Assembly (NCBI RefSeq): GCF_002295115.1
Contig: NZ_NSFV01000021.1
Span: forward strand, 1 to 64,000
Reading direction: 5' to 3'
DNA length: 64,000 nt
Origin: Mesorhizobium sp. WSM4311
GTDB taxonomy: Bacteria > Pseudomonadota > Alphaproteobacteria > Rhizobiales > Rhizobiaceae
Made by a program: the position numbers and the translations under genes. The notes beneath the pieces were generated by a model that was given only the letters and a program-made list of their open reading frames with translations, searched no databases and was not told the DNA's origin. This document shows, piece after piece, positions 1 through 3,404 of this stretch; the stretch's first letter is position 1; the number at the start of each line of letters is the position of its first letter.

Positions 1-135
1 ACGCAGCGGTGTGAGACGGGCATTCTTGTGGATGTTCATTCGGACCCTCCGATGGATGCTGAAGCGTGGTAACTCCAGTCTCCTCGGTCCGGTCCGAATG
101 GACAACCTCTCGAAAGCTCACACCTAGAACTCCTC

Positions 136-477
136 TTGAAAGCGTATCTAGCTTCAAAGGGCGTGTCGAAACGCGGTCTCCGGCTCGGCTTCGGTCACAA
201 GATCGAGGACATTTACGAAGCCGCAGTGGCCCTAGGAATGCCGCCGATTGGGAACGTGAAGATGATTGCCAACAACCTTGACCTGATGAATTCTCAGCAA
301 GATTTTAGGTACCCGTCGGGGTACAAGCTGAATGTCCCGCCGCCGAGCTTCTGCCGAGAAACGTATAACGCTCTCCACACAGCGATCGAGCCGAGGATCC
401 CCACCGAGGTACTGAAAGCCAACCTCAAATTTCATTGGGATTTTCGGGGGAAGACTGTCATTTGGAAGGACGAATAG
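136..477 (+). CDS. HEPN-like protein, N-terminally truncated remnant
   Basis: A 113-codon frame that opens with TTG. It contains an R-x4-H motif (RLGFGH, residues 17-22) inside a helix-rich segment reading LKAYLASKGV and GHKIEDI. This resembles the second helix and catalytic motif of HEPN-fold proteins, which are often RNases or toxin-like. The same frame is open back to position 73, and the residues before the TTG (HLELL) continue the helix, so the true start is unlikely to be 136. An in-frame TAA at 70-72 separates it from another open stretch (1-69). The first HEPN helix is therefore missing or broken, and the gene is probably a decayed remnant. It lies in the island end. Function is not assigned beyond the fold guess. 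Confidence 0.45.
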   Translation: MKAYLASKGVSKRGLRLGFGHKIEDIYEAAVALGMPPIGNVKMIANNLDLMNSQQDFRYPSGYKLNVPPPSFCRETYNALHTAIEPRIPTEVLKANLKFHWDFRGKTVIWKDE

Positions 478-616
478 CCCGAGGATGATCTTCCCCATCT
501 ACGTTGGCGTTCTTATGGCGCTGCTGTCAGCATCCGCCATTGGCGGTGGCGGCAAGGCGATCTTGTTGGGATGGCCGCCTCGCTGACAATGGCCGGGATG
601 GGCACTCGCCGGCTGG

Positions 617-828
617 CTAGGTTCTTAGCAGGCCATAGCCGGCTGTCTGGTGGAGATCGTCTTTCAGGGCTTTGATCGTCTGTGAAAGGTCGCGAACCTT
701 GTCCATCAGCGTCTGAATGGTCGCCCCGATGGGCTGGATCTTAACGCCTCAATCGTCGCGAGAAGCTCAAGGTAGACGTGGTTCAATTGAACTTTCTCCC
801 TTCGAGAGCTCTCAATGGTGATCGACAT
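617..828 (-). pseudogene. Frameshifted ~70-codon coiled-coil-like small gene
   Basis: Reading minus from the ATG at 828 gives MSITIESSRREKVQLNHVY and a helical stretch ending ATIEALR, after which the frame hits a stop. Adding one base near 740 restores an open frame through IQPIGATIQTLMDKV and a charged helix to TAG at 617. The 212-bp span is one base short of a multiple of three, consistent with a single deletion. The product would be ~70 residues, mostly helical, possibly coiled coil. It begins 16 bp after the stop of the 53-codon ORF (845-1006) and is probably the last gene of the DUF1403-ScpB cassette. No family is recognised. Confidence 0.4.
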
Positions 829-844
829 GTGCGACCAGGCTCGA

Positions 845-1006
845 TCAATTGCCTGTTCGCTTATCCTTCATCGACAAGCGGACGCGTGCCGCCACCTCCC
901 TTCCGTCACGCGAAGGACCCAGCCGGCGAGACCAGACGGCGTGCGTGGCGCAATCTTCTATGTGACGAGCGGCGAGATCGCGTGTGTCCCGCCGTGATGG
1001 GATCAT
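845..1006 (-). CDS. 53-residue basic protein downstream of scpB
   Basis: The ATG at 1006 directly follows a TAG (1007-1009) that would be the stop codon of scpB if its C-terminal frameshift were undone, giving a TAGATG junction typical of translational coupling. The protein starts MIPSRRDTRDLAARH, contains AVWSRRLGPSRDG, ends KDKRTGN, and is rich in Arg. It sits between scpB and the frameshifted small gene, all on the minus strand. No family is recognised. It could be a real small cassette protein or a chance frame. The junction with the ancestral scpB stop is the main support. Confidence 0.4.
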   Translation of the reverse strand: MIPSRRDTRDLAARHIEDCATHAVWSRRLGPSRDGREVAARVRLSMKDKRTGN

Positions 1007-1034
1007 CTATTCGTCGAGCGCGGCGCTGGCGCCA

Positions 1035-1697
1035 TCATCGTCGATATCTGCAAACCCTGGGATGATCCAGCAGCTTCTCCTTCGACAGCAGCCCGGCGTC
1101 CTCGAGCGCCTCGAAATCCGGCAGCTGGCGCAGCGTGTCGAGCCCGAACTGCGACAGAAAAGTTTTGGTCGTCACATAGGTGTAGGGCGCGCCCGGCTGC
1201 GGGCTGCGCGGCCCCGAGGCGACCAGCTGCTCAGCGCGCAGCACGCCGATCAGGTCACGTGACACCTCCTTGCCGAAAAAGCTCGACAGCTCGCCACGGG
1301 TGATCGGCTGGAAATAGGCAATGCACATCAAGACAAGCGCCTCCGCCTGCGACAGTTCTTTTGCTCCCTCGCCCGCTGCCGTGCCGAAGGCTGCGTGAAT
1401 GGCGTCGCCAAAAACCTTTTTGGTCCGGTGCTGCCAGCCGCCGGCGACCGCGACCAGCTCGTAAGGGCGGCCGGCGAGTTCGGCGCGAATGTCGTCGATG
1501 ATCAGCTCGATATTGCAGTTTTTTCCCACCACCCGCGCGAGGACACTACGTGTCACCGGTTCATTTGCCGCAAAGATCACCGCTTCGACGCGGGCCATCC
1601 ATTCGCACCAGCGCAGCTCCGGCGGCAGATGTTCCAGTTCGGTGTCGAGCAGCGCCGGCTGATCGTTTGGCTTGCGGCGGGCGGACGCTTCGCTCAT
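1035..1697 (-). CDS. scpB: SMC-Scp complex subunit ScpB-like protein
   Basis: This 220-residue protein has the tandem winged-helix layout of ScpB, the kleisin-associated (kite) subunit of bacterial condensin. The N-terminal wHTH covers about residues 30-95 (VEAVIFAANEPVTRSVLARV) and the second covers about 110-185 (LSQAEALVLMCIAYFQPITR). Core ScpB is normally encoded next to scpA, but here the upstream partner is a DUF1403 gene ending 2 bp before the start. This accessory pairing is known from rhizobial plasmids and islands. The last ~12 residues look out of frame: shifting by one base near 1065 gives an acidic tail (IIPGFADIDDDG) ending at 1007, more like ScpB tails. Function in DNA segregation or condensation of the element is inferred. 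Confidence 0.85.
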   Translation of the reverse strand: MSEASARRKPNDQPALLDTELEHLPPELRWCEWMARVEAVIFAANEPVTRSVLARVVGKNCNIELIIDDIRAELAGRPYELVAVAGGWQHRTKKVFGDAIHAAFGTAAGEGAKELSQAEALVLMCIAYFQPITRGELSSFFGKEVSRDLIGVLRAEQLVASGPRSPQPGAPYTYVTTKTFLSQFGLDTLRQLPDFEALEDAGLLSKEKLLDHPRVCRYRR

Positions 1698-1699
1698 CG

Positions 1700-2656
1700 C
1701 TACAGCCCGAACAGCCGGAATGTGGGGCGGCCGGAGAGCTCGCGCACGACCTCCAGTTGCTGCAGCCGTTCGAACAGCCGTCGCGATGCAAAGCGCGACA
1801 GATTGTCCGTCGTCAGCGATCCGGACACGGCGTCTTCACTGAGCAGCAGAAAGATTACGTCGCCGGCGCCTTTGGCGCGCAGTTTCGGCGCCACCGCCAG
1901 GAGTTTTTCGGCCCGGCGCGACAGCTCGGCGGCCAACCGACAAGCGTCCGCGGCGGCCGCGACGAGCGCGATGCAAACCGCCCGCTCAAAATTCTTGTCC
2001 CCGGGCCGGATGCGCCGGCCACCGCCGGCCTCGGTGCGGAAAGATGGTCCAAAACCCTGCGCCATTAGGAGCGGCAGGGGCTGCGGCCAGCCCAGGCGTT
2101 GCGCCAGTACCAGGTCGGCGAGCCACCAGCCAAAGACTTCGGCATCGGGACGCATGGCGACGACCTCAGCGGCGATCGCCGCGGCGTCGAATGGCGCCGA
2201 CCGCTGGGATACCCCGAGTTTTTCGATCTGCGTGCAAAGGTCGGCGAGCGCGGCGCCGTCCCAATGGAGGCCAAGCTGGTCGAGTATCTTCCCGAGCCGG
2301 CCGGGCGTAGCGGCGGGCGGCTGCCTGGCCAACTGCCGCCAGGCGCCAAAGACGGCGCCTGCGGGACCGGGGTCAGCACGTAGGGGACGCAAATGCCAGG
2401 CATCGCGCAAGGCGGCCGCATCCTCGGCGCGGCCGGCGAGCCGCATGCTGGAGGCGGCGCAGCGAACCGCCAGCCGCTGCCGCCAAGCGCCGGCCCAGGC
2501 TGCCTGCGCGCGGGCGAGCGTGTCGAGGGCACCCAGGGCGGCGCCGGCCCGGAAGGCGGCGTCGCCGTCACTCGGCGCGCCGGCGCTTGTGATCGCCCAC
2601 GCGGGAACGGAGGGCGGCGCAGAGGAGCTGGCGGTCGCGGGATCGAGGCGAATCAT
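1700..2656 (-). CDS. DUF1403 family protein
   Basis: A 318-residue protein matching the DUF1403 family as remembered: an N-terminal segment with FRAGAALGALDTLAR, then RQRLAVRCAASSMRLAGR followed by EDAAALRDAW, and a C-terminal winged-helix-like end (RLFERLQQLEVVRELSGRPTF then RLFGL). The ATG at 2656 was preferred to the upstream TTG at 2707 because MIRLDP resembles family N-termini, although no strong ribosome binding site is visible. It immediately precedes scpB. The biochemical role is unknown. Position next to ScpB and a possible C-terminal winged helix make a kleisin-like (ScpA-substituting) role conceivable, but that is inference only. Confidence 0.75.
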   Translation of the reverse strand: MIRLDPATASSSAPPSVPAWAITSAGAPSDGDAAFRAGAALGALDTLARAQAAWAGAWRQRLAVRCAASSMRLAGRAEDAAALRDAWHLRPLRADPGPAGAVFGAWRQLARQPPAATPGRLGKILDQLGLHWDGAALADLCTQIEKLGVSQRSAPFDAAAIAAEVVAMRPDAEVFGWWLADLVLAQRLGWPQPLPLLMAQGFGPSFRTEAGGGRRIRPGDKNFERAVCIALVAAAADACRLAAELSRRAEKLLAVAPKLRAKGAGDVIFLLLSEDAVSGSLTTDNLSRFASRRLFERLQQLEVVRELSGRPTFRLFGL

Positions 2657-2738
2657 AATTTGGAGAGTAAAGTGCCGGTGCGCTTTTCGCCATGATTTTC
2701 GTGCCAAAACGCACAGCCTGTCGGATCAGCACAACGAC

Positions 2739-2757
2739 TGATAGTGTTGCATTATCA
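2739..2757. promoter_or_regulatory. Imperfect palindrome upstream of the DUF1403-scpB cassette
   Basis: TGATAGTG-TTG-CATTATCA is an inverted repeat matching at 7 of 8 positions per arm. It lies about 80 bp upstream of the chosen DUF1403 start and on its 5' side, the right place for an operator of the cassette. No regulator gene is visible beside it. Confidence 0.3.
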
Positions 2758-3234
2758 ATCTCTTCACGAGTTCGTCCCTGCTAAGCCATTTGGCCAACAA
2801 GTAAGTCTCGACAGGGCACCTTTTTGCGCAGCCGGACGAAACTCCGTTCGGAAATGTGCCGGCTCGCGGCGTAGGAGCCTGCTCAGGTTCAGATGTCATG
2901 AAGGCATCTAACGCCCGATCTGCCGCGCAACTTCGGTCCCATATTCATTGCCGACGGGGTATCTGAGGGCGACGTTTTTTGCGGGTTTTTCCTGGTCGGC
3001 TTTGGAGGTGATGCTGGCGCCGATTGTCACAGGCTACTTCACTATCTGTTCCTTGACCGATGAGATCTTTTGCGCTGCGGCGCTCCCGTCTTTGCTGTGG
3101 GTCACCTTCTGACCCAAGCCCCAACGTACACACGCGGGAGTGTCCTACAAGCCATCGGTTTCGACAGATCGGATGGATTGGGCAGGCGAGCCCAAAAGCT
3201 GCGAGCTTAGAGCGGTTATAAATCGTAGTTGTAG
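2758..3234. other. Non-coding stretch at the island end
   Basis: No supported gene was found. Short frames on both strands lack a plausible start, ribosome binding site or family pattern. The stretch lies between the DUF1403 promoter region and the att-site repeats, so it is probably the terminal non-coding or decayed part of the island. No integrase C-terminus could be recognised. Confidence 0.5.
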
Positions 3235-3261
3235 CTGTGTAACAAACTGTGTAACAAAAAG
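3235..3261. repeat. Tandem 12-13 bp direct repeat beside the att site
   Basis: TGTGTAACAAAC is followed immediately by TGTGTAACAAAA. The pair lies 40 bp inside the island from the tRNA-Ser fragment. Short repeats in this position are commonly arm-type integrase binding sites, but that role is inferred. Confidence 0.4.
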
Positions 3262-3300
3262 CGCGAAAAGACTAGTATTTTCAGTATCATAGAGGTGAAA

Positions 3301-3322
3301 GGGAATCCCTCCCTCTCCGCCA
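3301..3322 (+). other. attR-type scar: 3' end of a tRNA-Ser gene
   Basis: The sequence ends with GAATCCCTCCCTCTCCGCCA: T-arm 3' half, acceptor 3' strand, discriminator G and encoded CCA of a bacterial tRNA-Ser. The 70 bases upstream do not form the rest of a tRNA, so this is a fragment, as left when an element integrates into the 3' end of a tRNA gene. Its orientation places the element to the left (positions 1-3300) and the original chromosome to the right. The intact tRNA-Ser copy should lie outside the window, on the left side. Confidence 0.7.
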
Positions 3323-3404
3323 TTGATCACCAATCGCATCCAGGATCGCGCATTCCGCGAGTGCTCATGACGCGATAGATTCGGCCAGTTGCTTGATGGC
3401 TGTT

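Follow-up and report, generated by a model that had tools for sequence, protein, structure and literature searches.

Plasmid multimers are resolved by XerCD/dif, by single-recombinase Xer systems and by Cre/loxP, and XerCD recombination is held to the resolving direction by ArgR/PepA or FtsK. For plasmid pSmeLPU88b, a XerD/Cre-like tyrosine recombinase encoded downstream of repABC was described together with toxin-antitoxin genes, and a role in dimer resolution was proposed (PMC10194956, in the available part). Here we consider a 64,000-nucleotide stretch of Mesorhizobium sp. WSM4311 (the window; the start of contig C14 in a 7-Mb genome), in which a gene of the DUF1403 family is followed by a gene for the condensation protein ScpB. 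On balance, DUF1403-scpB, a divergent gene for a Xer-like recombinase and a palindromic site probably make up a plasmid multimer-resolution module with unusual accessory proteins. The pair in the window is a stranded half of this plasmid module, without its recombinase. XerCD/dif, single-recombinase Xer and Cre/loxP are like the module in having a tyrosine recombinase and inverted site arms around a short centre, near plasmid partition genes. The module differs from them in a recombinase that scores far under the Xer cut-offs, in a site that adjoins the gene of its own recombinase and in having DUF1403 and ScpB for partners. The pSmeLPU88b system, which we liken to the module by its description, also has a tyrosine recombinase adjacent to repABC, whereas the available main text has no ScpB, condensation or integrase terms and its recombinase section gives no site (PMC10194956). 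RinQ of a Rhizobium etli plasmid was considered and set aside; the available part of the same paper places it in the invertase/resolvase family. The literature searched, which mostly consisted of papers outside subscription, yielded no study of multimer resolution by repABC plasmids with this module, no paper on DUF1403 and none on repABC together with ScpB; PMC12153318, in its available part, concerns chromosomal XerCD/dif.

A preliminary description of the locus had recognised DUF1403 and ScpB genes, and profile searches bear this out on the minus strand: the DUF1403 protein matches PF07183 (E 1.1e-103), and the SMC_ScpB domain is present in the window ScpB (PF04079, E 6.2e-32, 110.8 bits against a cut-off of 27.4). 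The scpB start lies 2 bases past the DUF1403 stop. The ScpB reading stops at 1035 because its last ~10 codons are out of frame, owing to a gap of 8 bp in comparison with plasmid pB2-1-8; in the alternative frame the tail (GFADIDDDGASAALDE) is similar to that of the pB2-1-8 ScpB (AFADIGDDGGSAALDK). Ratios of non-synonymous to synonymous substitution (dN/dS) against two plasmid-type copies were 0.26 and 0.31 for DUF1403 and 0.19 and 0.11 for ScpB (codons 1-208), and relative to such copies both genes are under purifying selection. The genome holds a second DUF1403-ScpB pair on contig C3, next to repABC and a tyrosine recombinase gene. In the window copy the recombinase gene is missing and the site has decayed; a second inverted repeat is kept.

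The arrangement was compared across 80 relative loci, the best 80 of 536 confirmed in a genome collection. A ScpB coding stretch directly follows DUF1403 in all 80 (a few are broken or cut by contig ends), in agreement with the earlier view of the two as a constant pair on mobile DNA. Upstream features were counted in the 71 loci whose DNA extends 2.5 kb or more beyond the site position, including four that are copies of the element seen in the window. Of the 71, 47 have the strict site pattern, 33 a divergent Xer-like recombinase gene within ~6 kb and 20 a rep gene. We also chose by hand 18 annotated plasmid stretches with DUF1403, Hyphomicrobiales and Rhodobacterales among them (13 via DUF1403, 4 via the recombinase, 1 via a DNA match). 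ScpB comes next in 17 of these, 14 have a tyrosine recombinase gene nearby, 14 have repABC, and six carry Tni transposition genes. Plasmid relatives have a recombinase with its own site beside partition genes, the recombinase being what the window copy lacks; on plasmid pMJ700743a of Mesorhizobium jarvisii ATCC 33669 (L071), intact copies of the recombinase gene, the site and the DUF1403-ScpB pair adjoin one another. Plasmid records with DUF1403 numbered 699 (E<=1e-5) and those with the recombinase 715 (E<=1e-30); these two separate lists were compared by their leading genera and share the same ten. In even genome draws DUF1403 was present in 4 of 385 genomes at class level (own genome included; 3 exceeded the family cut-off), in 109 of 297 at family level and in 72 of 99 at genus level. 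None of DUF1403, ScpB and the recombinase had a defence match in PADLOC, a single scan of viral contigs gave no DUF1403 relative, and PHROGs placed the recombinase in integrase families and ScpB in one family of unknown function, with nothing for DUF1403.

The recombinase of the relatives is of the Xer/integrase type. HSLR and LGH..T..Y are present in all nine proteins examined and GLRRSE, by a strict pattern, in seven; we take H..R and LGH..Y-type motifs to be tyrosine recombinase catalytic motifs. The nearest models are those of Xer proteins, yet the scores lie far under their cut-offs (57 bits against 329.6 for XerD, 53 against 335.15 for XerC, and 58 against 279). In some plasmids (L100, L101, L072) recombinase and site are separated by toxin-antitoxin pairs or by another gene, which recalls modules exchanged at Xer sites. 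A gene annotated as 'recombinase family protein' stands beside the tyrosine recombinase gene in three plasmids (L099 6612-7508; L103 4001-4942; L251 7082-7966).

The gap between the recombinase gene and DUF1403 contains a site of 31 bp, in which inverted arms of 12 bp each flank a 7-bp centre, for example AACGAACGATAA-TGGAAGT-TTATCGTTCGTT, and in the relatives its distance upstream of DUF1403 is almost fixed. A tight site pattern matched twice in the own genome, both times beside DUF1403, with no match for a reversed-pattern control; in the 99 genomes of the genus Mesorhizobium it gave 113 matches in 62 genomes, against one for the control. Among the matches listed, 95 of the 113 sites are within 300 bp of DUF1403. 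Outer arm bases pair better than arms swapped between sites (mean 5.09 of 7 against 4.26, reached in 0 of 5000 permutations) in a test of 94 distinct pattern matches that includes related sequences and at least one probable chance match (L094).

Between this site and DUF1403 there is the second inverted repeat (consensus GTGCGKTTT-N19-AAASCGCAC), which stands at two fixed offsets in 55 of 110 distinct regions. In 75 of the 110 (68%) no fewer than 8 of its 9 base pairs can form, compared with 9% of shuffles. It is here that one alternative has to be weighed, namely that DUF1403 and ScpB are only transcriptional regulators, which act through the inverted repeat on the divergent recombinase gene and on themselves. 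The window repeat is placed suitably for this, 58 to 22 bases ahead of the DUF1403 start and thus in the promoter region; a winged helix is predicted in DUF1403, and the ScpB family includes solved structures whose fold we take to be a winged helix. A strictly paired two-protein regulator would however be unusual, and the pair persists in the 38 of 71 loci that have no recombinase within reach, so that we regard a purely regulatory role as quite improbable.

The ScpB proteins linked to DUF1403 form a plasmid-type clade of their own. In a tree of 39 hand-chosen DUF1403-linked ScpB and 55 of 58 scpA-linked ScpB (those that passed a length filter), the two groups were split by a single branch with 100/100 support and a length of 2.23 plus 0.95 changes per column. 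The module thereby has the ScpB family domain in common with the SMC-ScpA-ScpB condensin, from which it differs in this separate clade and in having no gene annotated as ScpA or SMC. These observations bear on the possibility that the plasmid ScpB pairs with chromosomal ScpA and Smc, perhaps by way of DUF1403, and recruits the host SMC complex to the plasmid next to repABC, DUF1403 then being an adaptor, while the recombinase resolves dimers separately. Such a role would fit the retained SMC_ScpB domain, the position of the pair next to repABC and the gene order xerD-scpA-scpB in other bacteria; moreover, the one ScpA seen in the own genome, at its single chromosomal scpA-scpB locus, could be shared. 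We nevertheless consider recruitment of the host complex unlikely, given the very long branch, the failure of the window ScpB to reach the TIGR00281 equivalog cut-off (75.7 against 89.2 bits) and the lack of any ScpA or SMC annotation in the 18 annotated stretches, two of which (L071, L076) have a downstream gene for a YhaN family ATPase. In these two closely related Mesorhizobium plasmids a DNA repair exonuclease gene accompanies the ATPase gene after the pair (L071 8492-13221; L076 11693-16419).

For DUF1403, modeling predicted a catalytically dead Fic fold with a C-terminal winged helix. An AlphaFold2 model based on an alignment of the window protein with 66 locus proteins from the 80 loci reached a predicted local distance difference test score (pLDDT) of 90.9 and a predicted template modeling score (pTM) of 0.90. 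Its best structural match was SoFic (3zcn_A), with a Z of 18.9 over 279 residues, a root-mean-square deviation of 4.4 and 11% identity, where helical models without a clear match typically reach a best Z of ~14. The SoFic alignment takes in the winged helix, which the preliminary description had already suspected at the C-terminus, and the top 24 rows of the comparison were all Fic proteins, over DUF1403 residues 27-318. Sequence profiles gave weak Fic matches (E 0.0059, probability 6%; with another alignment 0.054, 1%), in register such that VVAMRPDAEVFG of DUF1403 stands at the position of Fic IHPFEDGNGR. SoFic (3zcn/3eqx) belongs to the class II Fic proteins, which are like DUF1403 in fold over the 279 residues including the C-terminal winged helix and differ from it in the catalytic motif HPFxDGNGR, for which none of 138 distinct DUF1403 proteins gave a match, by a looser pattern likewise. 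Two Rhodobacterales plasmids have, a short way downstream of DUF1403-ScpB, genes for Fic proteins in which HPFEDGNGR is intact (L099 10699-11814; L101 7706-8806).

The same comparisons speak to the proposal of the preliminary description that DUF1403 is a divergent kleisin, an equivalent of ScpA, and that the pair is an accessory condensin. Strict pairing with ScpB, the C-terminal winged helix and a position upstream of scpB like that of chromosomal scpA all speak for a kleisin, but DUF1403 matches Fic proteins over nearly its whole length. A profile-profile comparison with 33 ScpA proteins aligned only 14 columns at a probability of 0.3%, and Pfam at E<=1 returned no SMC_ScpA in DUF1403, only DUF1403 itself with weak HTH_13 and GHMP kinase N matches. 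ScpA was also not among the listed rows of the structural search, a search by which unlisted families are not excluded. No natural DUF1403-ScpB fusion occurred in the 80 loci; in four of them the two genes share one frame with a stop codon between, and a readthrough DUF1403-ScpB model, built with only 3 paired alignment rows, had a pTM of 0.61 and no confident contact or mutual placement of the two parts. A kleisin role for DUF1403 is therefore highly improbable in our view.

A further pointer to the function of the region came from transposons. The 99 genus genomes gave 31 strong TniB rows (E<=1e-20), two of them the halves of a single gene. Nine of the 31 are no more than 4 kb from DUF1403 or a site, in a region that makes up ~0.2% of the DNA, and 8 of the 80 loci have a TniB gene. 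Transposons of the TniB-bearing Tn402/Tn5053 type have been called res-site hunters (PMC7765201, available part). This label and the clustering of TniB suggest, although they do not prove, that the module region behaves as a resolution site. Genes for TniA, TniB and TniQ that are Tn402/Tn5053-like in gene content repeatedly adjoin the region of recombinase, site and DUF1403 (L073, L075, L097, L253, L254, L255).

From linkage and from the analogy with the XerCD accessory factors, we infer recombination, a resolving role and the tasks of DUF1403 and ScpB as follows. On repABC-type plasmids of Alphaproteobacteria, where the recombinase gene diverges from DUF1403-scpB with the site and the second repeat in the gap, the recombinase would recombine the two site copies of a plasmid dimer, and multimers would thus be resolved before repABC segregation. 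DUF1403, whose dead Fic fold would bind DNA through its winged helix, and the winged-helix plasmid ScpB might act together at the second inverted repeat. Their task there would be to keep the divergent promoters under control and to assemble or license the synapse, such that recombination proceeds only in the resolving direction. In the window the half-module would have moved, its recombinase left behind, to the terminus of a symbiosis integrative and conjugative element (ICE); its site has decayed. More tentatively, and with somewhat less than even confidence, ScpB and a dead Fic protein could have been recruited on hundreds of alphaproteobacterial plasmids as an architectural switch of a Xer-like recombinase, coupling multimer resolution to DNA compaction or to the repABC partition complex. 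If a resolution module is indeed what these genes form, DUF1403 would gain a fold and a setting, and ScpB would be seen to work away from ScpA; with a recombinase, a site and two named partner proteins, the module is directly testable.

Several observations weigh against a multimer-resolution module. DUF1403 and ScpB appear tied to recombination by linkage alone, and the window copy itself has no recombinase. More than half of the 71 loci (38) have none within ~6 kb, 24 have no strict-pattern site, and one of the divergent recombinases examined (48% identity) does not adjoin DUF1403. The second inverted repeat may be no more than an operator of the usual kind. Among the DUF1403 matches listed, 17 of the 113 sites are more than 2 kb from DUF1403 or on another contig; these remote copies may be solo sites or integration scars. 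As to the transposons, 22 of the 31 TniB rows lie beyond 4 kb, and the Tn402/Tn5053 class of the TniB genes was set by gene content only. Finally, Foldseek returned nothing for DUF1403 at E<=0.001 (best E 4.6e-3); it is the structural alignment that carries the Fic assignment.

Table 1. Positions of the module remnants and neighboring features in the window.
Feature	Position	Strand	Details
53-residue open reading frame	845..1006	minus	rejected: antisense to the decayed 3' end of a plus-strand UvrD-helicase gene
Plasmid-type ScpB gene	1035..1697	minus	220 residues plus stop; tail frameshifted
DUF1403 gene	1700..2656	minus	318 residues plus stop; ATG at 2656, stop at 1700-1702; fold predicted as Fic, catalytically dead, with a winged helix at the C-terminus
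Second inverted repeat	2678..2714	minus	GTGCGTTTT-N19-AAAGCGCAC; arms 2706-2714 and 2678-2686; candidate operator or binding site of accessory factors
Decayed site copy	2733..2763	minus	AGAGATTGATAA TGCAACA CTATCAGTCGTT; relatives approximately AACGAACGATAA TGCAANA TTATCGTTCGTT
Attachment core	3304..3323		GAATCCCTCCCTCTCCGCCA; identity to other genomes ends here; 20 bases as in ICEMcSym1192

Downstream of scpB, the preliminary description had added two small open reading frames of 53 and 70 residues to make a four-gene condensin-like cassette, of which both small members fall away (Table 1). The TAGATG junction that seemed to couple the first of them to scpB contains a TAG (1009-1007) in another frame, not the stop of ScpB at 1035. 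The 53-residue frame is open as described, but it runs antisense to the decayed 3' end of a UvrD-helicase gene: in pB2-1-8 the UvrD-helicase gene abuts scpB, and its decayed plus-strand equivalent is recognisable in the window (GGIVYLTSGEIAW versus GAIFYVTSGEIAC). A search of the plasmid collection with the 53-residue protein yielded nothing at E<=1. The supposed 70-residue frame (617-828, minus strand) contains three stops; frames of 40 and 29 residues, different from each other in phase, are found instead. In a comparison of 103 loci, window DNA before base 1000 was matched only by the identical copies L077-L080; among the matches listed, the lowest start of a non-identical match was 927, and 927-1066 (the UvrD and ScpB ends) was matched by two plasmids.

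The surroundings of the window copy are those of an ICE. Seven of 146 genus genomes, the own genome included, have a stretch identical to window 1-3323 (in two the match runs from base 51 only), and the 20-bp repeat at its end is the same as that of ICEMcSym1192, a chickpea symbiosis ICE at a Ser-tRNA gene (PMC8090884, available part). Two of the identical contigs come from strains of that study, WSM4313 and WSM4306, as given in its available part. Window 1-3323 is the terminus of an integrative element of the ICEMcSym1192 type. No tRNA was detected by ARAGORN either in the window or in the boundary loci. At about base 1-51 six draft contigs break off; there the complete chromosome L104 has, by eye, an open reading frame like that of an insertion sequence (IS) transposase.

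One locus (L107, 154-682) is 96% identical over 529 bp to this ICE end and has no DUF1403-ScpB. Because its similarity stops 18 bp beyond the site, the comparison suggests that the pair entered the ICE near the recombination site. Among the matches listed, many plasmid-type matches to window 1-3323 end at 2756-2767 and a few reach 2840-2857, and an end of homology at the site is therefore typical, not absolute. Window 2764-3323 had no plasmid match. Just beyond the site, the 94-bp stretch 2764-2857 is found at 83-94% in other DUF1403 copies (L135, L137, L085, L088, L089).

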